Shown here: piece by piece, positions 7,991-38,802 of the stretch
Numbering within the stretch: the stretch's first letter is position 1
Layout: the number at the start of each line of letters is the position of its first letter
Translations under genes and position numbers: made by a program
Source: Flammulina velutipes
Taxonomy: Eukaryota; Basidiomycota; Agaricomycetes; Agaricales; Physalacriaceae
Length of the DNA stretch: 64,000 bases
Direction: 5' to 3'
NCBI GenBank assembly: GCA_011800155.1
Contig: CM022375.1
Location: 806,001-870,000, forward strand
The notes under the pieces: generated by a model
Told to the model about the DNA's origin: nothing
Database searches by the model: none
Seen by the model: the letters and a program-made list of their open reading frames with translations, nothing else

Positions 7991-8269
7991 CTAATCGGCC
8001 AACGTCATAGCGTCTAACCCCAGTACTGTAATATCAACGGTGCTATTAGCGTTATCACCCACTATGACAGATGGGAGCGTCGGCGCGAACTGGTGCGTTT
8101 CCTTCGACTGCAAGTAGGTATGCCGGCGGCAGTGAGTAAACAGTGGGTCCTGCCCGAGGAGGATCCAATCCTCGGTGTTACGGGTGAAGCGGTCGTACGG
8201 CTCGACGCCTTCCAGTGGGCTAAGCTCTTCTCCCTCGATAATCCCGATAACCGCTTCCTTGTCTCGCGG
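7991..8269 (-). pseudogene. C-terminal tail of element A pol, split off by insertions
   Basis: This is an open frame ending at 7991 (...GLDAMTLAD, stop). If element B and one copy of its GCGG duplication are removed, the frame continues without a stop into 26023-26038, and further into the pol frame at 28841 if foldback 1 is removed. The expected GPY/F-type stretch of pol just after its SPKF motif is missing, so part of the C-terminus seems to have been deleted where foldback 1 sits. The tail itself has no domain that I recognise. Confidence 0.5.
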
Positions 8270-9964
8270 TGATACGCCTTGTAATATTTGGATGGGCAAA
8301 GACCCCATATTTTGCGATTTGGTACAAGGCAAACCAGGCAGAATGGACATAGGAAGAAGGCATTATGGACGGAATATACCACTCCACACCAGGCTAGCAG
8401 TACGGAGAAGGTCCTTGTTACTGGGACTCATCCTTGGAACCTTGAAGTCATGCACTGGTTCAGCCAGGCAATCGACCCCGCTTTCGAAGCGGGAGGAACC
8501 TAAAACTACAATACAAGTAACTCGACTTAGGCCGATCAATAAAACCAGTACTCAGTCTTGCACCCGCCATCGTGTCGGGTACTTAGAAATAAGGATCCCA
8601 CTCTTCCAAGGACAGTTCACGAACCACCCGCCACACTTGGACGGACTTAGCTACCAAAACGCAGAGGACGGAGATCAACCATCGAATCCATCAAAGGCAT
8701 GTTGCGTTATGAGTCATGATCTCAGGGGAAGTAAACCTTATTCCTGAATCACGCTCTGACTCCCTGGATCTCATCAATATAATCCAGATCGGGCAGATCT
8801 TCCAGATCGAGCACAGAAACCCAAGTCCCTCTGTTGGATAGCATTCGGGCTCTGGATATGAAGCGCCAGAGGCACTGTAGGACCCACCTAGGAGTTGAAC
8901 CGCCAACATGACGGGCCCGATTCCTGGGCGGGGCATTATTGGAAATAAGGCCTCTCTATCGAGAGAGGAAAAACACAAGGCAACAGGGACCATGCGGGTG
9001 CTAATTGAAGGCCCGCGCGGATCACCTAAGAATGGAGAGATACACATGGAACAAGCATGCCAGCTGACCTTGGATCACTCAGGAGCTGTGTACCCACGCG
9101 GTGCGCCACTCCTCATTGGGTGCATCCAGGACAAATACCTGGCTAAGAATGATGAAGGCCATATGGCCCAGGGCACAACGAGGTTCACGGGGCCCGCCAA
9201 CGTGGCGGCCGCTCCTGTGGCGGGTAAAAATACAGTAAACCAGCTTTAGTCACGCTCTTTAGAAATACCTATATAATACGCTCGTTAGCATACTGTAACT
9301 AGCTTAGACCCCCAGTAGACGCAGCCCACAAAGCAGTATTTACCGTCGGTTAGCTCGATAGGATTGAATAGAAGTTCTGTCACATAGGTGACTTTGAATC
9401 TGAAAGCAAAAGGAACTTAGAGCCATTGGAGCTACTTTGAGTAATTGAAGTCTAGCCATTGCCTGTGCCATCGACGTTCCCGGCGCTGTCTCAGAACAGT
9501 CATCTAACCACTTGAAAGAATCTGATTGGAAAACCCAGTCCCCGTTGAGTGTGGTTTAGACTGCAGCTAAGCTATCGTTTTAAGCCGCGGACAGAGTCCG
9601 TTGAGTCTTAGGGCATTAGATAGATACCAGGGTATCTGGACGCAGACCTCTTAGCGTGGTTGAAGATTGACGGACCGGTTGGAGCTTTATTAAGTCTGCC
9701 TCACGCATCCCAATCGGCCTGTGACTCTTGTTGGCCTCTAGTTTTCAACTAAAGATCAGATCCCTGTTACCCCTCGAACTTGTTATACATTTTGAACCGT
9801 TGCAATCGAACCCCCATACCTTCCCGAAACCCCAAAGACCAGTTCATCGAACTCTAAACAATTAAAAGCAGACCCGCTATCGAAGCGGACTTGCATTTCC
9901 ACGCCTACTTGTTAGTGTGTGTGTGTGTGTGTGATTTGGTGGTGTTCTTTTGCACTGCTCATCA
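8270..9964 (+). repeat. Element B 5' LTR (1695 bp)
   Basis: It starts TGATAC and ends CATCA. It differs from the 3' LTR at 8275 (g/a), by a 1-nt indel near 8708 and near 9024 (a/g). It contains several CCGC...GCGG palindromes (for example about 8476-8493, 8562-8580, 9192-9225, 9872-9888) and a GT microsatellite near 9915-9933. Open frames inside it are short and probably not genes. Confidence 0.92.
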
Positions 9965-9969
9965 TATTT

Positions 9970-9988
9970 TGGAGCCCACCGCGAGGGG
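9970..9988 (+). other. Element B primer-binding site
   Basis: TGGAGCCCACCGCGAGGGG starts five bases after the 5' LTR. TGG is the complement of the universal tRNA CCA 3' end. Which tRNA primes it was not identified. Confidence 0.6.
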
Positions 9989-10087
9989 TGATAAATTTGA
10001 CTTAGTCGATTCTTCGTAAAACAAGAGTTAACAAGTTATTTCTACACCCAATCCAAAATAGCCCCAAAAGTCAAGCCAACCGCTAAG

Positions 10088-11929
10088 TTGTCGGAAACAC
10101 CAACTAGTCAAAGCTCAGCTTTAGAACAACAAAACAACCGTAGAGCGAACTTGGGTGAAAACTCAGGTGCTCCAGTTGTAAGGAATCTACGCGAAAATCG
10201 TCCTAAACCAGGCGATCTATTCAACGGATATCCAGACGAACGCAGACCGCGTCCGCCAAACAAAAAGCCTAAAAAGCTACCACCCGACTTAGTGTCGGAG
10301 CCAGCCTATCCCCCCGGATTTATATTATCCACAGTCCCGCTTTCGAGTCGTCTTCCAAGACTTTTACCAAGTCCAATACCCCGAAGACCTCACACCCCTT
10401 CACCAAACGAACTTAGTCCGTTTGCAGACCGATTTGATCTCGATCAAGTCCACCCGCTATTTGAGAAATTTAGACAGGCTGTACCTTTAGGACAACCTCT
10501 ATTCCCAATGGCAGATCAGGAAAACAACAACGCAGGAGGGAACGCGGGCCAAGCTGCTGGACAGCCAAACCTAGCTCCCGTTAACAATTTCGTGAACCAA
10601 CTTAGTGCGCAAACACAAGCGGAAATTGCGGGCAAGAAACTACCGGCGCCTGGAAGTAAAGATGCCCCCCGCTTCAGAGACGGGGGAATCAGAGAATACT
10701 TCATGGGACTGGAATGGATCTACTCAGTGAACCGCGTAACCAACCCTCAAGTTCAGATCGAAATTGCAGGAGTCTATGTAGACTATGACATACGGAGACA
10801 GTGGGTCGCCCTACCCGAATACTCGGCGGGTGACTGGTTAGCATACAAAAAGGCCATCCTTAAGCTATACAATAAGGGTGAGCAAGATCAAGAATATACC
10901 ATGCGAGAGGTCGAAGAACTTTTGACGCACTACAAGGCGCGTCCCATAGGCTCAAAGGATAGAATGATGGAGTTCCGCCGAGAAGTCGTGCACAAACTTC
11001 AATATCTAATCGATATTGGAGATGTCACTCAGAAATCGGTACTCGATCTAGTCCAGCAGTGCTTTGTGGGACCCGCTTGGGCGGCGATCTACAATGATTT
11101 ACGAGCGATCCCTGTCCCTCCAAATAGACCGCTGGGACAGCGGTGGACTCTAGGCGAAGTCATTAAAGTCGCAGAAAAGTACTTAGAGGAAATAGAAACG
11201 TTCGGTGGTGCCCCAATGAGAACAGGGAACACGTACGAACGAGAACTCATTTCCCCGTCAACAACGCGGGTCAAGATTGAAGATATGCATGACCAAGTTG
11301 CCAGCATCAATTCGTTGGCAGATACACTCAAGGCCATCGAGAAGGCTCGACAGGACGAAATGAGGGAGTTAGAGAAAGTCCGACAGGAAGAATCCCGCAG
11401 GTTAATGGCTATGATGGATAGGATGGGAACTCGACAAATACAAATGCAGAGTTACCCTACTGAACATATGGGGAACTATGTGCAACAAAACACGTCGTAC
11501 CAAGCCCCTAGACCTCCAATACAGCCTATGCCAAAAGGAATACTTCCTGTCCCGGCGAACTTTAACCCATCACGTGCCCGCTCCCTTAGCGGGAAATGTT
11601 ATTTCTGCGACGAACATGGACATTTCCTCACAGAATGCCCTGAGAAGAACAAGTTCGAGAAAGAAGGCTGGATATATAAACCAGGGAACTCCAATTGGTA
11701 CTTCACAGCCGATGGGATTTCGCTAAGCAAGCGCAAAGATGGCATGTCTCCAATGGAACAAGTACTTAAGTACATTAGAGAACATGGTCCCAACCCACCC
11801 GCTAGCGCGCAAAACTACGAAGGGCTTTTTCAGGAAGACTTCTTTCCTCCGACTGAACAGATAGATCGGACGGTTTTCCTTCAACAGCAGATGATCGACC
11901 CCACCTACTTGCAGGAGGGTTTCGATTAG
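10088..11929 (+). CDS. Element B Gag
   Basis: The frame is open from 10007, after a stop at 10004. It has no ATG until 10508 (MADQENNNAGGNAG), so translation most likely starts there (about 473 aa). The 140 upstream codons are proline-rich and may belong to a longer form started at a non-AUG codon or through a spliced leader. The capsid-like helical region lies around 10620-11250, followed by a charged coiled-coil segment rich in E/K/R near 11320-11420. A canonical CCHC zinc knuckle (C-X2-C-X4-H-X4-C, CYFCDEHGHFLTEC) is at about 11597-11638. The stop TAG (11927-11929) lies just after the slippery heptamer at 11917-11923. The protein should form the virus-like particle and bind element RNA. 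Confidence 0.85.
   Translation: MSETPTSQSSALEQQNNRRANLGENSGAPVVRNLRENRPKPGDLFNGYPDERRPRPPNKKPKKLPPDLVSEPAYPPGFILSTVPLSSRLPRLLPSPIPRRPHTPSPNELSPFADRFDLDQVHPLFEKFRQAVPLGQPLFPMADQENNNAGGNAGQAAGQPNLAPVNNFVNQLSAQTQAEIAGKKLPAPGSKDAPRFRDGGIREYFMGLEWIYSVNRVTNPQVQIEIAGVYVDYDIRRQWVALPEYSAGDWLAYKKAILKLYNKGEQDQEYTMREVEELLTHYKARPIGSKDRMMEFRREVVHKLQYLIDIGDVTQKSVLDLVQQCFVGPAWAAIYNDLRAIPVPPNRPLGQRWTLGEVIKVAEKYLEEIETFGGAPMRTGNTYERELISPSTTRVKIEDMHDQVASINSLADTLKAIEKARQDEMRELEKVRQEESRRLMAMMDRMGTRQIQMQSYPTEHMGNYVQQNTSYQAPRPPIQPMPKGILPVPANFNPSRARSLSGKCYFCDEHGHFLTECPEKNKFEKEGWIYKPGNSNWYFTADGISLSKRKDGMSPMEQVLKYIREHGPNPPASAQNYEGLFQEDFFPPTEQIDRTVFLQQQMIDPTYLQEGFD
11917..11923 (+). promoter_or_regulatory. Candidate -1 frameshift site, gag to protease
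   Basis: The heptamer GGGTTTC sits in the gag frame as G GGT TTC, i.e. X XXY YYZ, followed by GAT and the gag TAG stop. After a -1 slip the next frame is open from 11917 through 13020, where the retropepsin motif lies. This is the expected layout of a programmed -1 frameshift. A downstream stem or pseudoknot was not worked out. Confidence 0.65.
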
Positions 11930-13020
11930 GCTCGAGGACGGACGGGGGTTCCTCTGAGTTACTACTTAAGAGAACTGCCCCTCCTGAGAGCCAGAATACT
12001 ATTCGTAGTACTCGAAGCCATACTGCTAAGGAAAGAGAACCAGTTATACCCAATATACCCAATATACCCAAAGAAAACCCGATAAAGCCCGGCCCCACGA
12101 AGGGACTTAGAGTAGAAGTAGTGTTGCCTAGTAGACCTAAGAAAGTTCAGTTCGTCGCACCTCCTGAAGAGGAAGAGCCAGAACTGAGTGATCTATTGGA
12201 AGAAGTGTTGGAAGGGCCGGAGCCCGCTATCGAAGCGGGTCCCGCTAAGAAACGGACAGAGGCCGCTATCCCGGCGGTTTCTGTAGAGGAAGCAGAGAAT
12301 GCTCCCCCAAAGGAAGAGAACAGTACTCCAAAGGAGCAGGAAAAGCACAAAAGCTATCAGCGCATTTCAAAGCTCAAGGACCTCCTACTCAGAAACCCTG
12401 GTTGGAGATCCCTTTGGAAGACACTCCTTCCAGAGGAACTTCTTGCCACGAATGAAGCCTGGCAGAAGGATTTGCTAGAGAATCTCAAAGCAAAGAATGT
12501 TAAAGTTAACATTCAACAAATGTCTGAATTAGACTCAGGCAGCGGACCCGCTATGGAAGCGGAGTATCACCAAAGTGAAGACCCACGATATTACTCAGTA
12601 AATCTACAAGATACAACCCAGTTACCGCTAGGGTCTGTAGTAGTGCACGACTTAGTCGAGCAACTGTTTAATCATACTGGCTACACGGGTCCGTATCAGA
12701 TGCCGCGCACCAATGTTGCGTCCGAAAGTGCTGATCTCAGAACTCTCTGGCCAACGATTGGCGGGGCAGGAAAGAAAGAGAGCCTCCTAGATAGCGGGTC
12801 GCAAATAGTGTCTATGTCACTTAAGGCCGCGCTAGAGCTAGGGGTTCCTTTCGATCCATCCTTTTCCATCACTATGGAAAGTGCAGACAAGGGTCAGACC
12901 AAGACAGTGGGACTGGCAAGGAACTTGGCGTTCGATTTCGGAGGAATGTATATTTCCTTCAAGTACACATCATTAGGGATCCAGCGTATGAAGTACTACT
13001 GGGCAGACCTTTCGATGTAG
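11930..13020 (+). CDS. Element B protease-region frame
   Basis: It lies in the -1 frame relative to gag and is open from the slippery site to 13020, with no ATG of its own at the start. An acidic linker precedes a retropepsin active site D-S-G-S (LLDSGSQIVSM, about 12785-12815). The protease should continue as a chain like 'DPAYEVLLGRPFDV', which is seen in a different frame from 12963 to 13196. A 1-nt loss near 12963 is therefore likely, and the listed C-terminus (LGIQRMKYYWADLSM) is probably out of frame. The protease of this copy is probably broken unless frameshifting rescues it. Confidence 0.7.
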
Positions 13021-13062
13021 TATCTAGTATCAATACATCCGTACTGCGAGATGGAGGAGTAG

Positions 13063-16000
13063 TTGCTACCATTACTGATCCTAGTAATGGGAAACGACTT
13101 ACACTCCCGACATACAAGCGGGGGCAAATGCCCCGCTACCAACAACAACCTGGCACCGGACCGGTTTTTCCGGAGCACTCGAGAATTGATCGATGATCAA
13201 GGAGAGGTGGCTCTAGTAGTTGGACAAGCAGAGAATGGTGAAATACAGATCGAGCGCACCTTTGTGCCAGAAAAATCCCGTCAGACGTTTGATAGTCAAG
13301 CATTAACCAGCTTGTACTTGTCTCAATCCTCCGATGGTGTTAACAAGGCCGCTAAAGCATTGCGGAATGGGTTTCGTTATGGAACAGCATCGGGTATGTC
13401 CACTTCGGACCACCCGCCAGGAAGTCGGGTCTTGTTACCACAAGTCCGACTAGACTCAGATTGGACTTTAGAGGAGGTCGAACAATATCAGCCTGTAACG
13501 GTGAACTTGTTCGACTCAGTCCCTCGAGGACTTGAGAAAATACTTCAGCACTTGACAGTTAGTATCCCACAGAAGGAACTCACTCTCTCACAGCAAGAGT
13601 ATTTAGACTCGAGAAAACGGGAATCAATTCCCAGACAGGTCTTAGCCACTAAGAAATACAAACCAGTCGCGTTGAAAGTCAAACCCCACTTGGGAACCTT
13701 ACCCGAAGAGTTCAGGATCATCCGCAATATTGTCGGGGATCCACTCGAAGGCATGTTGGAGTTAAATCCCAACCCGCCAAGCTTCACTCCGACGGGCAGA
13801 TACACAGAAGAACGACGTGAACAAGTCCAGAGAGACCATGTCGGGGATTTTCTGTGGCCTCAGGAAAGGGACTTGATTGACGACTTGATGTGCAAACAGA
13901 ACCAAGGCTTTGCCTGGGAAGAGACAGAGAAAGGAAGGTTTCGAGAGGACTTCTTTCCACCGGTAGATATGCCAGTAATACCGCATGTGCCATGGGTATT
14001 GAAGAACATTAAAATCCCACCAGGGATTTTTAATGAAGTCTGCGCTATCATCAAAAATAAGCTAGACTCAGGTGTATATGAGCCTTCGAACTCCTCATAT
14101 CGCTCGAGATGGTTTTGCGTGGTAAAGAAGGACGGCAAGAAACTTCGACTAGTACATAGTTTGGAGCCGCTAAATGCCGTCACCATAGCGCATTCTGGTC
14201 TACCACCCGCTACCGAAGAGTTAGCGGAGGCATTCGCAGGAAGAGCCTGTGGAGGGACTTTGGACTTGTATGTAGGGTATGATGAGCGCCACTTGTCAGA
14301 AAAATCTAGAGACATGACTACCTTCTCAACACCCTATGGGGCGCTGCGATTAAAGACCTTACCCATGGGATGGACGAACTCAGTTCCAATATTCCATGAA
14401 GATGTCACGCATATTCTCAAAGATGAAATCCCGACATATACGCGGCCCTATATTGACGACGTTCCTGTAAGAGGACCCGCCACTAGGTATCAGGACAAGG
14501 AAGGGAACTTCGAAACCATTCCAGAAAACCCAGGAATACGCCGTTTTGTATGGGAACACATGGTGAATATGAATAGAATTATACAAAGAATGAAATATTC
14601 GGGTGGAACTTTCTCAGGACACAAAGCAATAATCTGTGCCAATGAAACAGTAGTAGTCGGACACACTTGTTGTTATGAAGGACGGAAACCAGCTGAAGAT
14701 AGAGTAAAAGTCATCTCAGACTGGTTGCCGTGTGAATGTCTTAGAGATGTCCGCTCATTTCTCGGGACAGCGGGAGTATTTCGAACTTTTGTCAAGGATT
14801 ATTCAAAGAAAGCACTGGCAATGACTAGACTCACCAGGGATGGAGTACCATTCGTCTGGGGAGAGGAAGAACAAGCATCAATGGATGCACTCAAAAGAGC
14901 GTTGGAAACAAGCCCCATGTTGAAGCCACTGAATTATGACTGGCCAACACCCGTTATCTTGTCGGTCGATACCTCTTACATGGCGGTTGGGTTTTATCTG
15001 TCCCAAGAGGATCCAGAAGACCCTAAGAAACGCTATTTTGCTAAGTTCTTATCTATAACCTTGGACGAGCGGGAAGCCAGGTACTCGCAATCAAAGCGGG
15101 AGTTATTTGGTCTGCACCGTGCGTTAATGGCTTGCAAGTATTATTTACTTGGATGTAGGAAATTGAAGATTGAAGTCGATGCAAAGTACATCAAAGGAAT
15201 GTTGTCCAACATAGACTCTCTAACCAATGGGAATCTACAACGCTGGGCAGAAGAAATCTTGATGTTCCACTTCACCCTAGTACACGTACCTGGGAAAGTA
15301 CATGGCCCAGATGGACTCAGTAGAAGGGTAGCATCGCCAAACGATGTGATCATTCCAAGTCCACCAGGGGACGAGTACGAAGAGGAGCTATGGACCTTCG
15401 AATATGAGGAACCCGCTAACTTAGCGGAGGAAGACAAACCTCTACCCTTCGAAGACTTCAAAGACAATATAGACACTAGGACTGGATATCTCTTCGAAGT
15501 TAGCAAACCAGATGAGAACCAGGAGGACTTAGTAGAAGAAACCCCGACAGAAGTCGAGGAAGAGTACAGAGTCACTCAACTAGCCGCTATGGCAGTGGAG
15601 GACTTAGAAAAATGGGTAGCTATCGACGAGTTCCCTGAACTAGAACGATCAGCTAGGGAGCAGCTATGGGAAACCTTACTACCACACGTAGAACCCTACT
15701 TGAAGGATGAGAATTATACACCCGCTATCTTAGCGGATCGACAACTTCAAACCCTTAGGGACTTCAGTGACAAGGAATTCTTCATAGCTGGTGACAAGTT
15801 ATACAAAAAGAATGCAGAAGGAAAACACCGGAGAGTCCTCCTACTAGGCAAAAGACTGCCAGTGGTACAAGTCATACACGACAAGCATGGGCACAAAGGT
15901 CAATTTTCCGTCCGCAAACTTGTCGGGAAAAGATTCTGGTGGCCAGGGATGGATACAGACATCAATTGGTTCGTGAAAACGTGTGTACTCTGTCAGAAGA

Positions 16001-17046
16001 GACAGAAGATGAAAATACACAAAGAACCAACCATAACTCCAACACCAGGGATCTATGAAACGGCGTTTGTAGACACCTTCAGAATGCCGACTTCTGGCGG
16101 CACTGGAGCTCGAAAGAAGTACTCAGGATATAATGCAGTCACAGTAGCACGATGTGGATTGACTGGATGGCCAGAGGCCAGAGCGTTAATCAACGAGAAT
16201 GCCGAGACCTTAGGGGATTGGATTTTCGAAGACATATTGTGTAGATGGGGTTGTATAAAGCAGATAGTCACCGATAACGGACCCGCTATCAAGAAGGCAA
16301 TGGTCCATATCGAGGCTAAGTATGGTGTTAAAGGGATTCTAATCACTCCCTACAACAAACAGGCCAATGGAAAAGTGGAAAGAGGGCACTGGGACATTAG
16401 ACAATCATTGTTTAAAGTGTGCAAAGGCCATCCAGAGGAATGGCCCGCTTTCTTACATGAAGTACTATGGGCCGAAAGGATAACGGTTAAAAGGACTTTG
16501 GGTCATTCACCGTTTTACGCAGTAACAGGATGTGAACCAGTGTTACCACTTGATATCGAAGAAGCCACCTGGCTCGTAGATATCCCAGATACGTTGATTT
16601 CACACTCCGACTTGATAGCGTATCGAGCAACTCAGTTGATAAAGCACAAAGAAGACGTAAAGAAAATGAAACAGCGTGTAACAGAAGCCAAGAAAAGAGC
16701 AGCAGAAAGATTCATGGATGAACATAAAAATAGAATTCCAAAGTACAAGTTCAAAACAGGTGAACTAGTACTGGTGCGCAATACGCGCATTGAAGACGAA
16801 TTAAATTCGAAGTTCAAAGAAAGATTCATGGGTCCATATGCTGTTATTTCTCGAACAACGGCTGGAAACTACGTACTGTGTGAACTGGATGGCTCGATAT
16901 TGAAAGATAAGATAGCCCAGTTTAGGGTGATCCCTTTCTACTCGAGAAAGGACCCAAAACAACTGGGAGATGTATTTTTCAAGAGGCTACATAGGATCCG
17001 CGATAGTGTCGGGCGAGTACTCGACTTGGTAAATAAAACTACGTAG
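13063..17046 (+). CDS. Element B Pol: reverse transcriptase, RNase H, integrase
   Basis: A long frame of about 1300 codons; the first ~40 residues are probably out of frame, and the homologous part starts near RSTRELIDDQGEVA. The RT core (GTLDLYVGYDERHL, then YIDD at 14449-14460) is followed by RNase H (SVDTSYMAVG, ELFGLHRALMACKYYL, KIEVDAKYI). The integrase has an HHCC zinc domain (HDKHGHKG ... CVLCQKRQ), catalytic D (FVDTFRMP), D (VTDNGPA) and E (KVERGHWD), and a C-terminal GPY/F-like stretch (ERFMGPYAVI). No chromodomain is seen. The order RT-RNaseH-IN is that of Ty3/gypsy elements. It makes cDNA in particles and inserts it into the genome. All catalytic residues I checked are present. Confidence 0.92.
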   Translation: MLPLLILVMGNDLHSRHTSGGKCPATNNNLAPDRFFRSTRELIDDQGEVALVVGQAENGEIQIERTFVPEKSRQTFDSQALTSLYLSQSSDGVNKAAKALRNGFRYGTASGMSTSDHPPGSRVLLPQVRLDSDWTLEEVEQYQPVTVNLFDSVPRGLEKILQHLTVSIPQKELTLSQQEYLDSRKRESIPRQVLATKKYKPVALKVKPHLGTLPEEFRIIRNIVGDPLEGMLELNPNPPSFTPTGRYTEERREQVQRDHVGDFLWPQERDLIDDLMCKQNQGFAWEETEKGRFREDFFPPVDMPVIPHVPWVLKNIKIPPGIFNEVCAIIKNKLDSGVYEPSNSSYRSRWFCVVKKDGKKLRLVHSLEPLNAVTIAHSGLPPATEELAEAFAGRACGGTLDLYVGYDERHLSEKSRDMTTFSTPYGALRLKTLPMGWTNSVPIFHEDVTHILKDEIPTYTRPYIDDVPVRGPATRYQDKEGNFETIPENPGIRRFVWEHMVNMNRIIQRMKYSGGTFSGHKAIICANETVVVGHTCCYEGRKPAEDRVKVISDWLPCECLRDVRSFLGTAGVFRTFVKDYSKKALAMTRLTRDGVPFVWGEEEQASMDALKRALETSPMLKPLNYDWPTPVILSVDTSYMAVGFYLSQEDPEDPKKRYFAKFLSITLDEREARYSQSKRELFGLHRALMACKYYLLGCRKLKIEVDAKYIKGMLSNIDSLTNGNLQRWAEEILMFHFTLVHVPGKVHGPDGLSRRVASPNDVIIPSPPGDEYEEELWTFEYEEPANLAEEDKPLPFEDFKDNIDTRTGYLFEVSKPDENQEDLVEETPTEVEEEYRVTQLAAMAVEDLEKWVAIDEFPELERSAREQLWETLLPHVEPYLKDENYTPAILADRQLQTLRDFSDKEFFIAGDKLYKKNAEGKHRRVLLLGKRLPVVQVIHDKHGHKGQFSVRKLVGKRFWWPGMDTDINWFVKTCVLCQKRQKMKIHKEPTITPTPGIYETAFVDTFRMPTSGGTGARKKYSGYNAVTVARCGLTGWPEARALINENAETLGDWIFEDILCRWGCIKQIVTDNGPAIKKAMVHIEAKYGVKGILITPYNKQANGKVERGHWDIRQSLFKVCKGHPEEWPAFLHEVLWAERITVKRTLGHSPFYAVTGCEPVLPLDIEEATWLVDIPDTLISHSDLIAYRATQLIKHKEDVKKMKQRVTEAKKRAAERFMDEHKNRIPKYKFKTGELVLVRNTRIEDELNSKFKERFMGPYAVISRTTAGNYVLCELDGSILKDKIAQFRVIPFYSRKDPKQLGDVFFKRLHRIRDSVGRVLDLVNKTT

Positions 17047-17760
17047 GGAACAGATGGTGCGGACACCATCTATTTTCCTTGGTAGGGGATATAGAGGCGT
17101 TATATATAGGGTTTAAAGGTCAGGTTAAGTCAGGTTAATGACCCACTTTTTGGATTAACCTGACCTTAACCAGTCATTCAATATCATGAAAGTTGATTAA
17201 CCATTAACTGTGACCAGTCAATAAGTGTAACCAGTCACTCAAGACTCAGTTATAACTGGCTATAACCAGTTAAAACTTAATGCAGTTATAATCAGTTATT
17301 AACAGGTTATGACTAGTTAATATGCTATCAACCCTATAATTTAGAGGTAAACCAAGGTTAATAAATCTATTGATTTATCTTTTTCATATTCAAGTCTATG
17401 TTTTCTAGTCTTTCTCTTTATAATAGTAGTGTATTGGACTTTATCAATTATATATATACCATATATGAAATCTTTGTGTTATAGCTCTTTTTCTCTTCAT
17501 ATATTGAGAATATCAAGGGTATTGGTTATAACCAGTTAAGACCAGTCATTGACAGTCATATTAAATTTCTCCAAATACTTTAACTATTAACCTTAACCAG
17601 TCATTCACAGTGACCAGTCGCTCAGGGTCCAGTTAATGTTTCCAGTCAGGTCAGGTTAAGTCGCTCTAAAATGACCAGTTAAGTGACTTAACCTTTAGAC
17701 CCTAGTTATATAGGCCAAAATTTTAAATTTTGTTAAGATTCATTATCAGCCGCCTATATA
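17047..17760 (+). promoter_or_regulatory. AT-rich array of TAACCAGT-type motifs
   Basis: Between pol and the next gene, variants of the octamer TAACCAGT, its complement ACTGGTTA and the related CAGGTTAA / TTAACCTGA recur dozens of times at irregular spacing, in both orientations. No open frame is present. The region could be a regulatory or protein-binding module, or a decayed satellite. Confidence 0.5.
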
Positions 17761-18167
17761 GCGGGCAATCAGAACACCCGCCAACATAGCGGGTGGAAAT
17801 CGGAAATCGGCACGAGTCATGTGGAAGGCACGTGACTTATCACGTGACGAGACGCGTCCAAAACCAATCAAAGAGGAGACTGGTTGCCAGGCATAACAGT
17901 ATTGGAAGTTAAGGGAGGGCAAGCCTGTATAAGGTCAGCAAAAAGAAAGAGAGAATTGAGCTCAGGGACTTAGCGGAACCGAGACAGTCGGAAGCGAACA
18001 AGGCAAGAACAGGGCATCAATAGCAATCCAAAAAGGGAAGATATTGACTCGCCTCGGATGTTTTGATGGGCGATCCATTAAACACCGGACCGGACCCCGG
18101 TAGTGTGAGAAAGAGGGACTTTAACGTTACCCTCTTTCTTTTTCAACCACCACGTCTGAAAGTCAAC

Positions 18168-20059
18168 ATGTCCGCACCTGCCTCGCCCGCACCAACGCCT
18201 GTCGTGGCTACCCCGCCAAACGACGAATCTACTCTGTCGCCTGCGCTGGAGCCCGCCGCTATTGTGTCGCCCATGCCCGAGCCTGCCGCTATGGTGTCGC
18301 CGGCGCCTGAGCCAACCACCACGGTCTCGTCTGCTCCTGTGTCACCACCGGTCGGACCAACTGGACAACCTGGCTCGACAACACCGCTGTTTCTCCCGGC
18401 CCCTTCAGAGGGAAGCTCGCCACTGCCTGTAGAAAAAGAGCCCACCCCGCCTCCTAGGTCGCCAACCCCTGCGAGCCCGGAAGCGACACCACCACCTTCG
18501 AGTGTACTGGGAACGACGGAGTCAGGCATGACCCCGTCGGTTGACGCGTCGGCGACGCGTCAACCAAGCCCAGTACGCGTCGAAACGTGGCCAAGGAACG
18601 AGGAAAGCGAACCGGCGACCCTAGGCCTGGACTATGCGTCCACGGAGGTCGAAGAAGACGAAGACGAGGAGGTGGACGAGCTCATGAGCACGTCCTCTCC
18701 CGAACCAGCTGGAGGAGAAACGAAGGGATCTACGGGAGGTGAACCTCCCGCAGATCCGGATCGCAGCGACGGTCTCACCGTCGCTGAGATCGACTTCGCA
18801 AGGGCAATGCCCCCACCTGTCCCGCAGTCACCGCCGAGGCTGCCACTTCGTCTGGGCTCGCCGCCCTTGATAACGGAATCGCTGTTTGGACCGACATGGT
18901 TCCCAGCACCCATTCCACCACCATCCCCGCAACCTTGGTTGCAACCGACCCCACCCACCACGACCCCGCCCCCAGCATCTCCGTCTGCCGCTGGAACACC
19001 TCCGGCAGCAACAGAGATACCGCTGGCGGGACCTTCCATCTTGCTGTCGCCTCGGATCTGGTCGCCCCCAACGGGTACTCCGCCCAGGATGGCGACACCT
19101 TCAGAACCGGCACCAACGTCCCCGATCCCAACGGCGTCGACAAAACCCAAGTCGGCGTCAAGGAAACGGAAACTGGAAAGGCCTGTCTAGGGGGACTCGC
19201 CAAAGAAAAGGACATGGGGACCAGCAATTCTCAAGACGCCTGCCTGGGTGCCGGTGTCGAAGAAGAGGAAGGAGATGGAGACTGAGGAAGAACGAGAGGA
19301 CGACTCAGAAGAGTCGAGGCAACCGAATCCGCCAAGGAAGCGGGTAAGGCTCACCAAGAGGAGACCAGAGCCGGTCAAAGCGAAGGTTAGTTTTTCTACT
19401 TGGATAAACCAAGTGGATGAGACTAACCAGGGAAAATAGAAACTGCCGACAGCCGAAGAAGTGGCTCTCGCCGCCCAACGAGCGGCTCGAGCAGAGGCCC
19501 GCGAGGCCAAGAAGAACCAGTCGGCCGCCTCAACGTCGGCCCCGCCTGCCAGTCGGGCACGAATCGCTCAGCCCGCCCCGCAGCCGGTGGCGTCATCCTC
19601 GAAAAGAAAACTCGACGACGACAAAGCGGAGCCGAAAAAGAAGAGGAAGCCGCGAACGGTCGTCGACAACCCGACTGGGCGTAAGCCCATGCTCCCCGCC
19701 CGCGAGAAGGACGACCCCCTCCACAACGAGCAGATCTTGTGCAGAGGATGCTTCAAGAAGGGTATCCGCTGCAAATACGAGGGATCGAATCGCTCGTGCA
19801 TAGAATGCGCATACACCAAGAAAGGGTGTTTGAAGCTGGATCCAGAGGATCCATGCCTCCTCAAGGACGAGGCCCAGCTGCGCGTCGAGGAACTGGAGAA
19901 GGAGGTGGCAACGCTGAGGGACAGGTTGACGACGCTCGAGGAAACCGTCAGGTTATCGGAGGCCGTTATCCCGAACCTCGAGGCGGCGTTGTCCATCATC
20001 TTGACTGGTGGGGACACATCGGAGATCCTGCGCAAGTTGGAGCGAGGAAACTACGACTA

Positions 20060-20093
<34 letters not shown>

Positions 20094-20180
20094 GAGCTGG
20101 AAGACCCGAAAGGGAAAGGCAAGGCAAAGGCCCCCGCTAAGAAGAAGGGGAAAGGCAAGGGCAAAGGCAAGGAGAGGTAG
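18168..20180 (+). CDS. Element B accessory Zn(II)2Cys6 coiled-coil protein
   Basis: Exon 1 is 18168-19385 and exon 2 is 19440-20180, with a 54-nt GTTAGT...ATAG intron that keeps frame. The N-terminal third is rich in Pro/Ser/Thr/Glu, followed by KR-rich nuclear-localisation-like clusters (SARKRKLERPV, PPRKRVRLTKRR, PKKKRKPR). At 19740-19829 six cysteines have the spacing C-X2-C-X6-C-X8-C-X2-C-X6-C, inside the consensus of fungal Zn(II)2Cys6 DNA-binding domains. A heptad coiled coil (VEELEKEVATLRDRLTTLEE) follows, as in Gal4-type dimers, then an Asp run and a Lys/Gly tail. An in-frame TAG lies at 19188-19190 in exon 1, so this copy may be interrupted. A role in binding the element's own palindromes is inferred only. 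Confidence 0.7.
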
Positions 20181-20837
20181 GGACTTGGGCAGGCCCAAGT
20201 CCATTGGACTCTAAATAACGGACTGGACGTTTACATAGAAAAACGGGACTTAGTACGACAGAATACGGACTGCTTACGTACTGTATTTTCTTCGGGCGTT
20301 GGGGTCGTCTCCTTTTCTTTGGGCCGTCGGGCAAACAGTAAATATATGGCTTTGATATATAAATCAGGACTCATACTATCTTGGATAAAAGCGAGACTGA
20401 AGAATAAGAGACCGCTAAGTTGTCGGGCATCCAAGAAAGTATGAGAAGAGCAAGAAAATAGGCTGCGCCACACAAGGAATTGGCACCCGACCCGATAGTG
20501 GGTCGGGTCTTCGGACTCTAAGTGGTTCATTCAACAAATGCATTGAGTGAACTAGTAAAACTATAAGAGATAGGCGGGACGTCAAACCATATAAGTCAAG
20601 GGGAGACGCCCGCAAACGAAGAAGTAAATAGGATCTAAGTGGAAAAATTGGACTTAGAGAAATATAGAAGGACCAAAAATAGCTATTCAAAAGCACCGCT
20701 ATGACTAGGGCATTGGAAATAAGAAACAAACAAGTCACAAAAGAAGTTAGAGAAAGTCGGGAACACCCCAGTACTCAACACAGGACTCATCAGGATACTC
20801 GAGGGGAGCGCAAAAGCACATACGCTCGCTGCACTTG
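20181..20837. other. Element B spacer between sense and antisense genes
   Basis: No gene is supported. It holds a strong palindrome (CCCGACCCGATAGTGGGTCGGG type, about 20487-20510), further GACTTAG motifs and CCGCTAAGTTGTCGG near 20411. Confidence 0.4.
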
Positions 20838-21995
20838 TTAAAATGTTTCTGCAATCAATACCAAGTCGTCAGCAAACAAAGGATGGCTCGAGAAAAAGCT
20901 AAAAGCACCAACAAAGACCATAGAAGGTGGAGCTTGACTCTCCGCTTCGATAGCGGGTCCCGAAACGGGAGCGGCCGCTACCATAGCGGGTTCAGTCAAG
21001 ACAGACTGGGCCACCTCCACAGCGACTGGACTACCCATCCAAGCGACGGTGTGAGGAGGTGGAACAGAAGCTGAAGGAGCAATGGGATTGGTAGTTTCGT
21101 CGAAGTCACGATCCGAGGCTAACACGGGAGCGAAGTCCAAGTGAGCAGCGAGACCCGTTGTGATAACGCGCTCGTACATGATAGGACGAGTATCGCAGAA
21201 ACGAGGGAATCGATTAACTGCTAAGAAGCGGGGCCACCAAAGGACAAGCGCCTGGTCGACGGGGGACAATTGACCCAAGGGAAGGGGCAAGTTGTTCACT
21301 ACATCGTAGTTGGCAACGATCCCTCCCAAAGAGTCCTCAGCCCCAAGGTGAAAACCAAGGAGAACGGACGTCTGACAAGGATACATTAGACCTCCGACTG
21401 GAAAGCGGGTGAACCAAACGTACGGCGAAGTCACCCAATGCCTCTTCCATCATCTTAGCAAAATACCGCTCGGGATGACGGAAGCGGGCGGGGATGAGGT
21501 CTTCAAAGTGAAGACCATCGAGTACCACTGAACCCCGCCGCATCCCAAACCAGTTAGAAACAAGACGAAGGCAGCAGACATACAACAAAGCAATGTTGTA
21601 GGCCTGACCCGTCTTGAGGTCGGGATCCTCGATCTCCCAGATAGCCATCGAGCGAATCTATGTCTAAGTCAGAACTAGGAAAACAGGGGACAGAAGACGA
21701 AACCCACCAAACATTGAATCATGAAGCGCAAAGTGGGTGCGTCGAGCATTTCGCTCACACCCAAGGACAAGTCCTCAGTTGGGGAAGTATGAAAGGAAGA
21801 AAGATCCAAGACGTCGAAAGGCGTGGCCACGATAGGGAAGCTAAACGTAGCACGGTACATCGACAAGGCCACAGCTAGACCTGCTTCAGCCTCTAAGAAA
21901 CCGACGGCTTGACGGGAAAAGCGGTCAGAAAGGCCTGGGAGAAAAGCAAGCTTGAAGTTGGTCCAGGGAGGGATTAACGCAAGATTCTGCTCCAT
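20838..21995 (-). CDS. Element B antisense gene, unknown function, frameshifted
   Basis: On the minus strand an ATG at 21995 opens a frame (MEQNLALIPPWTNFKLAFLP...) that seems to splice, across a GTTTGG...ATAG intron near 21655-21710, to a frame with MAIWEIEDPDLKTGQAYNIA. Near 21425 the protein-like reading moves to the next frame (PYVWFTRFPVGGLMYP...) and runs on to 20838. The sequences look like one protein with a one-base shift in this copy. Composition is hydrophobic/helical with no motif I recognise. It lies antisense to the element's genomic RNA, so it would need its own promoter, presumably in the 22000-22400 stretch or the 3' region. Confidence 0.45.
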
Positions 21996-22479
21996 GTTGG
22001 ATAAGGATTCGAGAGGACGTTGCGAGTTTATAAAGGTGCGCGCCCGCTATACTATCGGGCCCCGCAATAACAAACGGATCCGCAACGGCCATCGAATGCA
22101 AGGAGGCAAGGCCCTACCACACGGCTACGCTGAGTAGTATTGCCAATACGACGACCTAGAGGGTGCGGATGGACACCACCAAGTGACCTTCCACCAGGAT
22201 ATGCGCAGGGACTTAACCACCCGCTATCAAAACGGGTCAAGGACGAAAATTAGGCCCCGCCAACATGGCGGACAGGAACTCTATCGTGTAGATTCAGTTG
22301 GTGGCACAGCGAGACATGAGGCAAAACATATTGCAAATTCAGAGTCTAGTTACGAGGCGAATGATGAACTAAAGAGGGAATACAGTAACTAGCTGCAACA
22401 GGGACGTGCCCAACGAACTACAGATCACGGAAAGAGTATTGAGGGATCTACAGCGGAATGTCCAAATCGAAGTGGAGAC

Positions 22480-24101
22480 TAGTCTAGCAAGGACTTCACG
22501 GTGCCTACATACAGATCCTTGGTACGATTGAAAGCCTGGATCTCACCGTGGACATGGTTCAAGATCCGAACCAAGTCCAAGCGGTAGGACTGCTCCGTCG
22601 ACAGAAGTCAAGCACTAGCCTCACGAGGGAACTCGTCGAGCTCGGCAAGGCGATTAACCTGCTTGAGCACGCGAACGACCGACGAGGCGTAGCTCTGAAT
22701 AATAGGACCCGCTAACAAAGCGGACCCGCCAAGTTAGCGGGTGTACATCGAAACTAAGACAACAGGCGTACCTCCAGCAAGCTGGTCCAGGAAAGTCTGG
22801 TCGATATGAAAAGACGAAGGCTTAGGACTCTTCCAGGGACGACTAGAGTTCTCGGCAGTAGCCTTGCGCTTATGGGCAGCGGGAGCAGGTTCGACGAAGT
22901 TCACGGAAGAACCCAGAATGTCTAAGGCCTTCTGGTATTCCCGGGAAGAAGTCAGCATACCTGGGACGAACGCGTAGGGAAGGTAAAATACCGTGCGCTT
23001 CGAGTCCGAGGGAGGCGACTATGAACAAGTCAGCACCCAAAGTAGAAAATCAGCCCGAGTCGAAGACATTACCTCGAGAGGAACCAAGTCGGTACCAGTA
23101 ACACCGTTGCCGTCGATAATGGACAAATCCTGCAAGGGGACTGTCAACGAGTCCAAGTCTAGAAAAATCGTGAAATAAGCTCACGTCGTCCGAAGCAAGA
23201 TCGGATTCAGACAGACCGTCGTCCATATCTTAGCGAAAGAGAAGGCGTCGGGGTTAAAACACAGATTGTGAAAATTGGAGAAGAGGAACTTACCACAGTC
23301 CTCAGGAGGAGGCATAGCCGCTTCCCCGACGGCCTCCAACTTCTCATCGATCACCGCTGGCGACTTAACCGTCTTTCCACCCTGGGAAAACGACTTAGAA
23401 ACCAGAAACACAGTAAGGAAACAATAGCGTACCTTCTTAGCAGCAGGCTTGCTCTTGGGAGGATCCTTAGGAATGTCGACTTTTGGAGCCGCCTCTTTAG
23501 CGGGTCCTTTTCCTTTCGAGTTAAAGGACCGCTGGTTGAAGTGCAAAGGATGAAAGTCGGGCAACTTAGGCGCTATGAAGTCGGTGTGTCGACTAGTGAC
23601 AGCCGTAAGAGGCGTGAACACGCCAGCAAGATTAATCCGCGGGAGTTGAGGATTAACCCCCAACTCCAGCAGGTAGCAAGCTAGCCAGTTGCGAACGTTA
23701 TGAAAGAATGAATGAATTTCAGCCGTCGCGGTAGCGGTCGTGCGATTAGCCAAAGATAGGTTAACAGCCTAACTTGGGTCAGACACGCACGAACATAGAA
23801 GAACAAAGGCACTCACCAATAACTTGGGAAAGAAGCGATCAAGAGAGTCCACGCGGGCTTCCAGAGCGATACCCGGCGTGTTAGACAAACGAACGATGGC
23901 CATAATCGGTCCAGAAAGTTGTTCGATCGCGTCCTTGATAACCCCCTCGACATGAGTGGGGACCGCGTAGTTCATGATGAACTCAGAGATAGCGGGTCCC
24001 AGCTCCGCACGAAACTGCGTAACCTCAGGCGCAACGGTCACTGGATCGACTGCCAGCAGTGGGCGAATGGTAGTCCAGTGCGGGGTTTTAGGAGGAGCCA
24101 T
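22480..24101 (-). CDS. Element B antisense multi-exon gene, unknown function
   Basis: It begins at ATG 24101 (MAPPKTPHWTTIRPLLAVD). Exons 24101-23817, 23768-23433 and 23381-23294 join in phase over GT-AG introns of about 47-50 nt. An acidic exon follows at 23228 (DMDDGLSESDLASDD). Later exon-like frames include GVTGTDLVPLE (about 23090), SPPSDSKRTVFYLPYAFVPG and the helical MLTSSREYQKALDILGSS (to about 22750), then a coiled-coil-like tail near 22700-22500. Phases at about 23190 and after 22750 were not resolved. The KGKGPAKEAAPKVDIPK region is basic. I do not recognise the family. Its orientation is opposite to gag-pol. Confidence 0.5.
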
Positions 24102-24319
24102 TATGCAGAAAAGACAGAAGTTGGATAAGAGTTGTAGTGGACGCGCCAACGAAGCGGCGCGCCTACAACAGCTTTTAAGCCAGGACTTAGAATAACCAGA
24201 TCGGGCCCGCTTCTGAATCGGGTCGATCTAAGTAGAATCCAAATCTGGAGTTATACGATGACCCTGTATTCTACCAAAGGTAGAAGGCAGAGGATGTCGG
24301 GGACGACATCAAATAAGTC

Positions 24320-24328
24320 AAGGGGAGA
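24320..24328 (+). other. Element B polypurine tract
   Basis: AAGGGGAGA abuts the 3' LTR start TGATAC at 24329. It is the expected second-strand priming site and fixes the LTR boundary. Confidence 0.8.
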
Positions 24329-26022
24329 TGATACACCTTGTAATATTTGGATGGGCAAAGACCCCATATTTTGCGATTTGGTACAAGGCAAACCAGGCAG
24401 AATGGACATAGGAAGAAGGCATTATGGACGGAATATACCACTCCACACCAGGCTAGCAGTACGGAGAAGGTCCTTGTTACTGGGACTCATCCTTGGAACC
24501 TTGAAGTCATGCACTGGTTCAGCCAGGCAATCGACCCCGCTTTCGAAGCGGGAGGAACCTAAAACTACAATACAAGTAACTCGACTTAGGCCGATCAATA
24601 AAACCAGTACTCAGTCTTGCACCCGCCATCGTGTCGGGTACTTAGAAATAAGGATCCCACTCTTCCAAGGACAGTTCACGAACCACCCGCCACACTTGGA
24701 CGGACTTAGCTACCAAAACGCAGAGGACGGAGATCAACCATCGAATCCATCAAAGGCATGTTGCGTATGAGTCATGATCTCAGGGGAAGTAAACCTTATT
24801 CCTGAATCACGCTCTGACTCCCTGGATCTCATCAATATAATCCAGATCGGGCAGATCTTCCAGATCGAGCACAGAAACCCAAGTCCCTCTGTTGGATAGC
24901 ATTCGGGCTCTGGATATGAAGCGCCAGAGGCACTGTAGGACCCACCTAGGAGTTGAACCGCCAACATGACGGGCCCGATTCCTGGGCGGGGCATTATTGG
25001 AAATAAGGCCTCTCTATCGAGAGAGGAAAAACACAAGGCAACAGGGACCATGCGGGTGCTAATTGAAGGCCCGCGCGGATCGCCTAAGAATGGAGAGATA
25101 CACATGGAACAAGCATGCCAGCTGACCTTGGATCACTCAGGAGCTGTGTACCCACGCGGTGCGCCACTCCTCATTGGGTGCATCCAGGACAAATACCTGG
25201 CTAAGAATGATGAAGGCCATATGGCCCAGGGCACAACGAGGTTCACGGGGCCCGCCAACGTGGCGGCCGCTCCTGTGGCGGGTAAAAATACAGTAAACCA
25301 GCTTTAGTCACGCTCTTTAGAAATACCTATATAATACGCTCGTTAGCATACTGTAACTAGCTTAGACCCCCAGTAGACGCAGCCCACAAAGCAGTATTTA
25401 CCGTCGGTTAGCTCGATAGGATTGAATAGAAGTTCTGTCACATAGGTGACTTTGAATCTGAAAGCAAAAGGAACTTAGAGCCATTGGAGCTACTTTGAGT
25501 AATTGAAGTCTAGCCATTGCCTGTGCCATCGACGTTCCCGGCGCTGTCTCAGAACAGTCATCTAACCACTTGAAAGAATCTGATTGGAAAACCCAGTCCC
25601 CGTTGAGTGTGGTTTAGACTGCAGCTAAGCTATCGTTTTAAGCCGCGGACAGAGTCCGTTGAGTCTTAGGGCATTAGATAGATACCAGGGTATCTGGACG
25701 CAGACCTCTTAGCGTGGTTGAAGATTGACGGACCGGTTGGAGCTTTATTAAGTCTGCCTCACGCATCCCAATCGGCCTGTGACTCTTGTTGGCCTCTAGT
25801 TTTCAACTAAAGATCAGATCCCTGTTACCCCTCGAACTTGTTATACATTTTGAACCGTTGCAATCGAACCCCCATACCTTCCCGAAACCCCAAAGACCAG
25901 TTCATCGAACTCTAAACAATTAAAAGCAGACCCGCTATCGAAGCGGACTTGCATTTCCACGCCTACTTGTTAGTGTGTGTGTGTGTGTGTGATTTGGTGG
26001 TGTTCTTTTGCACTGCTCATCA
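24329..26022 (+). repeat. Element B 3' LTR (1694 bp)
   Basis: Nearly identical to 8270-9964. The right flank 26023-26026 (GCGG) matches 8266-8269 on the left side of the element. Confidence 0.92.
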
Positions 26023-26038
26023 GCGGGTTCAGGACGAT

Positions 26039-37211: not shown

Positions 37212-38802
37212 GGCGTTCATCGTTGTCTACTCCGTGGCGCCGAGACATATGACGTGATCGTCGATCTCTGTGATCGCGGCGTCGATCATCATAGTCACTC
37301 TCGGAATCGGACTCGGAATTGCTACTATCACTCCCGCCTCCGCCTCCGTTGCCTCCTTTGGGTCGACGGGATTTATGAGAGTGGTGCTTTCTGTTGCGGG
37401 GTTGACCCCGCTTCTGACGTTCGTCCTCATCTCGTCTTGCATCGTCATCATACGGAGGTTCGTCGGGTGGTTCAATCTGTGAATTACGAGTGCGTGGTCG
37501 TTGTGTCCCAGGGGATTCTTGTTCAGGTGTCGCTGGCGTCTTTCGATATGGGGTAACGTTATGTTCACAGCCTTCCCTGAGGCGGACAAGATAATTGCTT
37601 CCAGGGGCCAACTCGTATTCACTGGGTAAGTATTCATTAGATTCATGGTGTAATTCGTATATGGTACGGTGATTATCGATCCATATACCTGGATCAGGAA
37701 AGGTGATGCGCTGCCTAGTGATCTCTTGTTTGGATCGCTCGTTGTAGTTTATCATCTTGGCTTTGATGATACTGAATCGGTTCGATTGTTCTGCGGTCAT
37801 GCCCGCAGGTTGTTTACCTTTCTCTATTGGCTCGGGTAGACCAGATAGCGTAGCGGTTTCGGTGATCGGGATGAGGTCAGGTGGTGATTGGTCGATGATT
37901 AATCCATACATTTTACGGAACCTAAGGTCAAAAGTTGCTATTGCTGCTCCGACCACGTTCAACGTGGACTCAATATTGATTCCCGCTTTGCGAGTATTCA
38001 GGTCCGTAAACATAATCTTAATTTGTTCGACAAGTTTAAGCATCTCGATACGATCCTCTTCTGGTAACGCGCGAGTTTTTGCTAGTACTTTAGAATGATC
38101 ATTCCAAGCGTCTAATACTTCCACATCATCCAGGGATTCATCAACGATCTGGGGTAAGCTATCTTTATCAACGGGCCATTTACTTAATAGCTTCGCAAAC
38201 GGAATCTTTGGGATATCCGGGAGGGGCGCATATATTTGCGCCACAATATTGCGTTTGATGGCGGATGACCCATTATTCTCCGGGGTATCATGCATGTGAT
38301 CCACTCGTGGCGCATTATTCTTATTTGGACCACCTCGTGGGCCATCTTCGCGCAGCGTGTCCTTTAATTGGACGAGAGGAGTGATAGGTTTACCTTTCTC
38401 ACTAGCTGTCGTTCCGGTATTAGACCCTGGTTTCGCAAAAGCGAACGCATTCGCGGTTATCGTCGGGGACGATGTTCCTGTCGGTGCCTGCCCAGCGCCA
38501 CTATCAGACTGTTCCATCGTTGTTTTCGGGGATTTCGGATCTTTGGCAGATACATGCTGTGCATCAATCATTACCTCAGCATTTTGGGGGTCAGCGGCGG
38601 TTTTCAGTTGCTCAATTACACGGCGCCCCCCCGCTTCTGCTGCGTCAAGAGAATCATCGTCTATAGTGTCTTCAACGGTGGATCTGGTGTTGACTTTCTG
38701 CTGCTGTGCGGGTTGTCTTTCAACGGTATCATCACGGTTGCGCTGAGTGGAATTGACGGTAGTTCGAGAACCAGGCTTGGGCGGCATAGTGGATGTTTGC
38801 AA
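37212..38802 (-). CDS. Element A Gag N-terminal part (interrupted)
   Basis: It starts at ATG 38802 (MQTSTMPPKPG; a second ATG at 38787, MPPKPG), only about 80 nt from the 5' LTR. The N-terminus is low-complexity (Q, T, S, D, E), followed by a structured middle (LDDVEVLDAWNDHSKVLAKTR..., FRKMYGLIIDQSPPDLIPI) and an Arg/Ser/Gly-rich end. It is cut at codon DNDER by foldback 2; the frame resumes at 34408. The whole Gag-protease is over 1,100 codons, larger than in most gypsy elements. The first ~500 residues have no domain that I recognise. Confidence 0.75.

Follow-up and report, generated by a model that had tools for sequence, protein, structure and literature searches.

Why is a retrotransposon strewn, in its coding and noncoding parts, with short palindromes, and does a protein that it encodes bind them? 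The question is raised by element B, a Ty3/Gypsy-type long terminal repeat (LTR) retrotransposon at positions 8270-26022 of the window, as we call the 64,000-nucleotide stretch C8:806001-870000 of the 38.1-Mb, 23-contig Flammulina velutipes genome. Zn2Cys6 proteins bind paired CGG triplets in inverted, everted or direct arrangement, and an earlier note on this DNA had proposed that a B-encoded protein with a Zn(II)2Cys6 domain binds palindromes of the form CCGCT...AGCGG. In our best explanation, which we consider probable, B encodes an accessory Zn2Cys6-type dimeric protein and carries its own everted RKCGG sites, nine bases apart, that have been selected along its body.

Dispersed CCG-N9-CGG sites in element B

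We scanned B for CGG/CCG pairs at spacings N0-25 in everted, inverted and two direct arrangements, using 100 dinucleotide shuffles and a cut-off of z 5; for these counts B was taken without its 3' LTR (16,059 bp). The everted pair CCG-N9-CGG is the sole arrangement above the cut-off, occurring 56 times against 3.6±2.0 in the shuffles (maximum 11), and the runner-up, inverted N2, reaches z 4.2. With the 3' LTR included, B holds 63 such sites, and the other 46,247 bp of the window hold 5. The density in B is 3.49/kb; the 38.1-Mb genome contains 7377 sites in all, or 0.194/kb. Because the genome count is not above that of a reversed control (7605), the excess of sites is local; the corresponding genome-wide counts for CCG-N8-CGG are 4620 and 6505.

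The counts against shuffles and host genome confirm that the palindromes are concentrated in B, in coding sequence, noncoding sequence and LTRs, and that no exact copy stands outside it in the window, where the earlier note had noticed none comparable. The exact form CCGCT-N5-AGCGG occurs 13 times in B with both LTRs counted (starts at 8478, 9874, 11129, 11578, 12224, 12548, 15413, 15722, 20942, 20975, 22709, 24537 and 25932); the remaining 46,247 bp of the window have none. Genome-wide there are 337 against 53 for the reversed control, and 39 of the 50 distinct places listed fall, by coordinate, in B copies or B LTRs. As the unit, however, the strict palindrome is too narrow, and CCG-N9-CGG takes its place: the positions 8562, 17780, 20490, 22045, 22220 and 24205 had been offered as palindromes, which they are only imperfectly, and what they share is CCG-N9-CGG. 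The example offered at 12224-12240 is a real palindrome with CCGCT at 12224, given off by one, with the preceding C at 12223.

The triplet CGG itself is scarcely enriched in B (209 found where the composition outside B predicts 206; for CCG, 217 against 178), and AGCGG is enriched (38 against 8 expected). The pooled half-site reads RKCGG, with G as the commonest next base, and the inner site positions look like a degenerate half-site preference with no required pairing. A fixed spacing between nearly independent half-sites is what would be left as the mark of a protein dimer on DNA.

The body of B has about one site per 290 bp, with densities of 3.0/kb in pol, 3.3/kb in gag and 4.1/kb in the LTR. 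An even spacing of the sites was considered and rejected, since the gaps look random (coefficient of variation 0.89, P 0.27). The parts of B, including its open reading frames (ORFs), and the starts of their CCG-N9-CGG sites are as follows.

8266-8269 (left) and 26023-26026 (right): target-site duplication GCGG
8270-9964, + strand: 5' LTR, TG...CA; 7 sites (8478, 8564, 8900, 8917, 9194, 9209, 9874)
9970-9986, + strand: putative primer binding site, TGGAGCCCACCGCGA..., placed from sequence
10080: extra site immediately upstream of the gag-like ORF
10088-11929, + strand: gag-like ORF with a CCHC zinc knuckle; 6 sites (10284, 10669, 10815, 11129, 11255, 11578)
11857-13020, + strand: ORF2, with a weak aspartyl-protease match (expectation value [E] 0.012, under the cut-off); 3 sites (12224, 12263, 12548)
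13063-17046, + strand: pol ORF, 1327 amino acids, RNase H and integrase H2C2; 12 sites (13107, 13414, 13722, 14213, 14431, 14751, 14951, 15413, 15722, 15912, 16472, 16998)
17047-18062, + strand: post-pol spacer; 2 sites (17750, 17778)
18063-19190, + strand: Pro/Ser/Thr-rich ORF, sharing its reading frame with the Zn2Cys6-type ORF; zero sites
18190-20440, + strand: hypervariable cassette, containing the Pro/Ser/Thr-rich and Zn2Cys6-type ORFs
19329: extra site upstream of the Zn2Cys6-type ORF
19440-20180, + strand: Zn2Cys6-type ORF, 246 amino acids; 5 sites (19471, 19525, 19542, 19573, 19945)
20181-24328, no strand assigned: 3' region; 19 sites (20412, 20492, 20942, 20960, 20975, 21113, 21394, 21609, 21901, 22044, 22221, 22257, 22709, 22726, 23190, 23318, 23489, 23723, 24207)
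20841-24227, - strand: six antisense open frames, with counterparts in F2 (a second family, below) in the same order at 35-58% identity
24311-24328, + strand: polypurine-like tract preceding the 3' LTR, recognized in the sequence
24329-26022, + strand: 3' LTR; 7 sites (24537, 24623, 24958, 24975, 25252, 25267, 25932)

The coding sequences were compared with 1000 synonymous-codon shuffles that held the protein and the codon usage fixed. The pol ORF has 12 sites against 0.99 in the shuffles (maximum 5 in the 1000), gag has 6 against 0.60 (maximum 4), the Zn2Cys6-type ORF has 5 against 0.71 (maximum 3), and ORF2 has 3 against 0.28 (P 0.003). These counts show that the coding sequence of a retrotransposon carries a second, DNA-level message. 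In aligned B copies, 308 of 348 comparisons show a CpG within a site core retained; for CpGs elsewhere the figure is 2162 of 3060 (per-CpG Mann-Whitney P 0.0024; P 0.005 against CCG-Nx-CGG pairs with other spacings). The test covered 3.7 kb around the Zn2Cys6-type ORF in local alignments of 70-98% identity, with enough copies for 26 of the 28 CpGs inside sites and 239 of the 254 outside them; owing to the relatedness of the copies, some of which probably come from duplicate contigs, the events are not independent. The earlier note had named conservation in other copies as a check, and site CpGs are indeed kept more than other CpGs. Within the explanation as a whole, it is probable that binding sites were selected into the body of B, LTRs and synonymous codons included.

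Assignment of B to the Gypsy class follows from two LTRs (about 1.7 kb, 99.8% identical), RNase H (reverse transcriptase type) and integrase H2C2 domains above the Pfam cut-off in the pol ORF, and a gag-like ORF whose zf-CCHC match (E 0.0015) lies under it; RVT_1 and rve gave no match in the pol ORF at E 0.001. The boundaries previously given for the element are right, as the LTR positions show. The 7.3 kb from pol to the 3' LTR contain the Pro/Ser/Thr-rich ORF, the Zn2Cys6-type ORF and the antisense set, whose six ORFs are probably exons of one spliced gene and have zero Pfam matches at E 1. Four B loci are few in sites (L012, L013, L018 and L020), of which at least L012, L013 and L018 lose the B match partway, and L013 and L020 contain pieces of the neighboring element C; we read these loci as nesting.

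The Zn2Cys6-type protein and its hypervariable cassette

The cysteine pattern CX2CX6CX8CX2CX6C is present at 19740-19829, where it had been placed before, with a predicted long helix downstream; the layout of the protein is a Zn cluster, a long helix or coiled coil, an acidic run and a Lys-rich end. The third interval is X8 in B alleles and X9 in F2, and both fit the Zn_clus pattern, CX2CX6CX5-12CX2CX6-9C. All six cysteines are kept in 14 of 14 members of set A2, so that the cysteine pattern of the Zn cluster, whose conservation was likewise to be checked, is retained. Nine comparisons with B copies gave nonsynonymous rates (dN) of 0.041-0.106 and synonymous rates (dS) of 0.29-1.02; because dN is far under dS, the ORF is under purifying selection.

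Protein searches of the genome, with 35 of 269 candidates scored in the pol search, found many B copies and the second family, F2. Among the 40 top-scoring matches in each LTR-end search, identity is 97-100%, and for pol the best matches reach 98-99%. From about 18190 to 20440, however, identity to the window is mostly 60-95% in the other 22 loci that were aligned, ranging from 96-99% over most of the cassette (L022) down to 35% in one bin (L019), and downstream of it the 18 loci that align return to 92-100%. When 10 copies are compared in all 45 pairs, mean identity is 82.7% in the cassette and 97.2% in the next 1.2 kb downstream; one element on C12, paired by coordinate, is 98% identical to the window in pol and 65% in the Zn2Cys6-type protein. 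F2 behaves alike, its copy on C4 matching the scanned F2 copy at 97-100% in LTR, gag and pol, at 73-96% in the Zn cassette and at 98-99% in the next 1 kb. The F2 cassette lies at offsets of about 9250-12000. This variability could come from recombination of old alleles or from diversifying selection between copies. We make no claim of a motif shift among B alleles with 62-66% Zn identity, for which only 52 half-sites were available.

A sister family and control elements

The pol of F2 is 84-85% identical to that of B in the search, and 81% in amino acids and 71% in nucleotides over 1297 aligned residues, and the Zn proteins of the two families are 33% identical. In 13,049 bp of F2 on C5, we found 21 CCG-N9-CGG, 15 CCG-N10-CGG and 18 inverted CGG-N6-CCG pairs, where 200 shuffles gave about 2 of each. 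Two further arrangements exceed z 5, namely the direct pair CGG-N18-CGG (10, z 6.0), as a combination of N9, N10 and inverted N6 would give, and CCG-N8-CCG (10, z 5.6), for which we have no explanation. The copy on C4 has 22, 15 and 19 of the three pairs in 15.5 kb, counted without shuffles. A GG six bases past the half-site, on at least one side, accompanies 25 of 36 F2 sites, against 7 of 32 pairs with other spacings and 7 of 56 B sites. Both families thus use the CGG pair, but not with the same spacing or the same outer bases.

Coding sequences of F2 also hold sites beyond synonymous shuffles. N9 pairs number 8 in pol, 4 in the Zn ORF and 3 in ORF2, where the shuffles give 0.95, 0.49 and 0.26, and they are marginally in excess in gag (2 against 0.38, P 0.047). 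For the inverted N6 pair the excess is seen in gag, with 5 against 0.29, and also in pol, with 4 (P 0.004), and the Zn ORF, with 3 (P 0.007). The N10 pair exceeds the shuffles in the Zn ORF alone (3, P 0.013); gag, ORF2 and pol show no such excess. Of the 12 pol sites of B, 2 coincide with F2 sites in the alignment, another 2 overlap an F2 site that is shifted, and the other 8 have no F2 counterpart. At these 8 the alignment is gap-free, which indicates gain or loss by substitution; the encoded residues are identical at 2, differ by one or two at 4 and by more at 2. A candidate third family on C4, F2b, was rejected: it matches F2 at 97.4% over the first 9.5 kb, and its Zn ORF is broken. The comparison of B with F2 suggests that a change in the protein goes with a change in the motif, in which case each protein would serve only its own family.

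Seven other Gypsy stretches served as controls: element C of the window minus one LTR, and 9-kb pieces around six integrase matches picked from 137, counted without shuffles. The Zn2Cys6 pattern is found in 0 of the 7, where the six pieces may fall short of whole elements and a Zn gene could lie beyond a piece. CCG/CGG dyads are absent from the strongest dyads of the seven, whose everted or inverted CCG/CGG pairs number at most 5 at any spacing from 0 to 15. Whatever its type, no dyad in the controls scores above 6.2, a value based on four copies; the corresponding top scores are 30.1 in B and 12.8 in F2. The motif thus accompanies the Zn2Cys6 gene in 2 of 2 families with it and in 0 of 7 stretches without it.

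Element C (26035-28844 and 34408-37212) has 2.8-kb LTRs, each a near-perfect inverted repeat; in the right-hand LTR the arms measure about 1.2 kb. A Plavaka transposase is found elsewhere in the window and points to an agaricomycete host.

Explanations for the sites and related systems

We consider it likely that the element's own Zn protein binds the CCG-N9-CGG sites, as the earlier note proposed. The fixed spacing, the co-occurrence of gene and motif, the difference in F2, the conservation and the codon tests all speak for binding. The proposal is nevertheless supported only in part, and its strict palindrome is too narrow. The B protein has no match to Pfam PF00172 (Zn_clus), and that of F2 scores 14.2 bits (E 0.048), short of the curated 21. 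Foldseek favors the assignment in that its four matches, the only ones returned, are all Zn2Cys6 domains, but every E is over 2; the fold evidence is weak. The structure models have a mean predicted local distance difference test score of 57.5 at full length, which is poor, and of 68.5 for the domain alone, which is somewhat better. Also in favor, a profile search of PDB placed PPR1 on top at a marginal E of 0.048, the best similarity to known factors. A protein database search, by a method that requires shared 5-residue words, gave only 6 and 4 relatives.

What such binding would do is a more tentative matter. Because the sites span the element and not the promoter alone, the protein may act on chromatin, most plausibly preventing the silencing of its own copies, although we put this a little below an even chance. 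The element would make a Zn2Cys6-type dimer that binds dozens of sites and coats its own DNA, and through its sequence-specific binding would most likely counter silencing or activate the element, a case of convergence with the VANC proteins of plants. With comparable reserve, we propose a self-recognition code in which a Zn protein from a hypervariable cassette reads sites that selection has placed throughout the element, even in synonymous codons of gag and pol, and could thereby protect its own family alone from silencing.

The main rival, which we regard as rather unlikely, is that the same protein and sites form a plain transcriptional autoregulator, activating or repressing, that acts on the LTR and on internal or antisense promoters, with the gag and pol sites strengthening or buffering the response. 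Zn2Cys6 proteins are mostly transcription factors; 7 sites lie in the LTR and 19 in the 3' region, which holds an antisense gene with a presumed promoter of its own. However, site density is alike in pol, gag and LTR, and promoter control alone would not need gag and pol sites at near-LTR density, nor their excess over synonymous shuffles.

It is improbable that a host-encoded Zn2Cys6 factor binds the sites and is exploited by the element. Many fungal Zn2Cys6 factors do recognize CGG pairs, but the motif tracks possession of the Zn2Cys6 gene and differs between sister families in one host, which a single host factor would not explain.

Slightly less probable still is a protein that tethers the integration complex, or the copies to one another, through targeting of own copies, clustering or pairing. 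Copies are indeed clustered and nested: among 19 external 5' flanks, B sequence accounts for 3 and F2 sequence for 1. The integration sample comprised 21 left and 21 right LTR ends, taken from the window and 40 fetched of 80 listed ends; internal ends (2 left and 4 right rows) were excluded. All external flanks of B, 19 on the left and 17 on the right, fit NCGN, and identical 4-bp duplications occur at 10 of 13 loci with both ends known, so that insertion follows a 4-bp NCGN target. CCG-N9-CGG was found within about 60 bp of 0 of 10 joined empty sites; the Zn protein is therefore unlikely to steer integration through the motif, and we rejected motif-driven targeting.

Some further features of the copies were seen. 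The one F2 left flank observed, GCGT, also fits NCGN. On C12, B insertions in opposite orientation at C12:692082 and C12:670792 (L053, L054, L061, L062) have swapped flank tetramers (ACGC/GCGG and GCGG/ACGC), as expected under recombination between two B insertions. At C5:582111-599000 (L035, L036), an inverted F2 LTR lies where the 3' part of the plus-strand copy breaks off, and a second F2 pol in inverse orientation follows onward to C5:607321, which would be an inversion or an assembly fault. On the small contigs C15 and C22, Zn and pol matches recur with equal or almost equal scores, and those of Zn form mirrored pairs, so that these contigs may be duplicated or palindromic pieces of the assembly.

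That the palindromes act as RNA hairpins in the transcript, for packaging or stability, is very improbable. Perfect short stems with a 5-nucleotide loop exist, but the inner three positions of the 56 sites pair in 75 of 168 cases, against 68.0±5.7 with the right halves shuffled (P 0.12), and T-G, which pairs in plus-strand RNA, is about as frequent as the nonpairing C-A (9 against 10). With no significant covariation of inner positions, we rejected hairpins. Mobile palindromic micro-insertions, mini-palindromes of a kind known elsewhere, or a base-composition bias can practically be dismissed, since dinucleotide and synonymous shuffles fall short of the counts and the 8 pol sites missing in F2 align gap-free, pointing to substitution.

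Among Zn2Cys6 proteins, the B protein resembles PPR1, PUT3, Leu3, HAP1 and GAL4 in its six-cysteine pattern, linker and coiled coil and in CGG half-sites at a fixed spacing, and Leu3 also uses an everted CGG pair. These are host regulators of few promoters; B differs from them in its everted spacer of 9, and its similarity to them is marginal (the E of 0.048 above is the best).

By analogy, B would work like the VANC system of Arabidopsis VANDAL elements, and we do not class it as a VANC member; VANC is not known to be a Zn2Cys6 protein. VANC is an element-encoded DNA-binding protein with a short motif recurring across its own element (PMC5735166, PMC10398659), and related elements with diverged proteins have different targets and variable protein regions. 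B and F2 likewise combine an element-encoded protein of DNA-binding type with a family-specific recurring motif. VANC21 is described as binding a 9-base motif within VANDAL21 and as bringing about loss of methylation by way of this motif, while a related VANC acts on other elements (PMC5735166). Unlike B, VANDALs belong to the DNA transposons of plants; the regions bound by VANC21 are noncoding, and tandem repeats are frequent among VANC targets, whereas the sites of B also lie inside gag and pol. Binding and hypomethylation are demonstrated for VANC, whereas for B both are inferred.

Retand and other plant Gypsy elements with extra ORFs share with B a long region between pol and the 3' LTR, antisense ORFs and a proposed DNA-binding accessory protein (PMC11963269, PMC7264820). 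They are plant elements with a TRP28 domain and tandem-repeat arrays, and the available parts of these papers do not mention dispersed binding sites. Fungal DNA transposons with TET/JBP dioxygenases have a proposed escape from methylation-based silencing (PMC12730594), which resembles the role suggested for B. That route is enzymatic and, as its author speculates for mushrooms, not target-specific. The same paper reports CG methylation almost confined to transposons in Agaricus bisporus and no retrotransposon with a TET/JBP gene in its survey (PMC12730594), a gap that a sequence-specific anti-silencing protein would fill.

A dispersed motif with an element-encoded binder is already known from VANDALs. 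We recognized no report of an element such as B in the open-access literature, surveyed mostly at the level of titles and abstracts; new as far as that survey goes are the LTR retrotransposon, the Zn2Cys6-type protein, the synonymous-codon sites and the hypervariable cassette in two families. Escape from silencing by transposons is known in few cases only, in plants and by enzymes. With the inferred protein, its site, a sister protein with another site and controls all in one genome, the co-evolution of a selfish protein and its code is directly testable, and B and F2 form a natural swap experiment for the spacing specificity of Zn2Cys6 proteins. If true, our explanation would make B a retrotransposon counterpart of VANC with an unrelated type of protein, in which two sister families use different codes in one genome.

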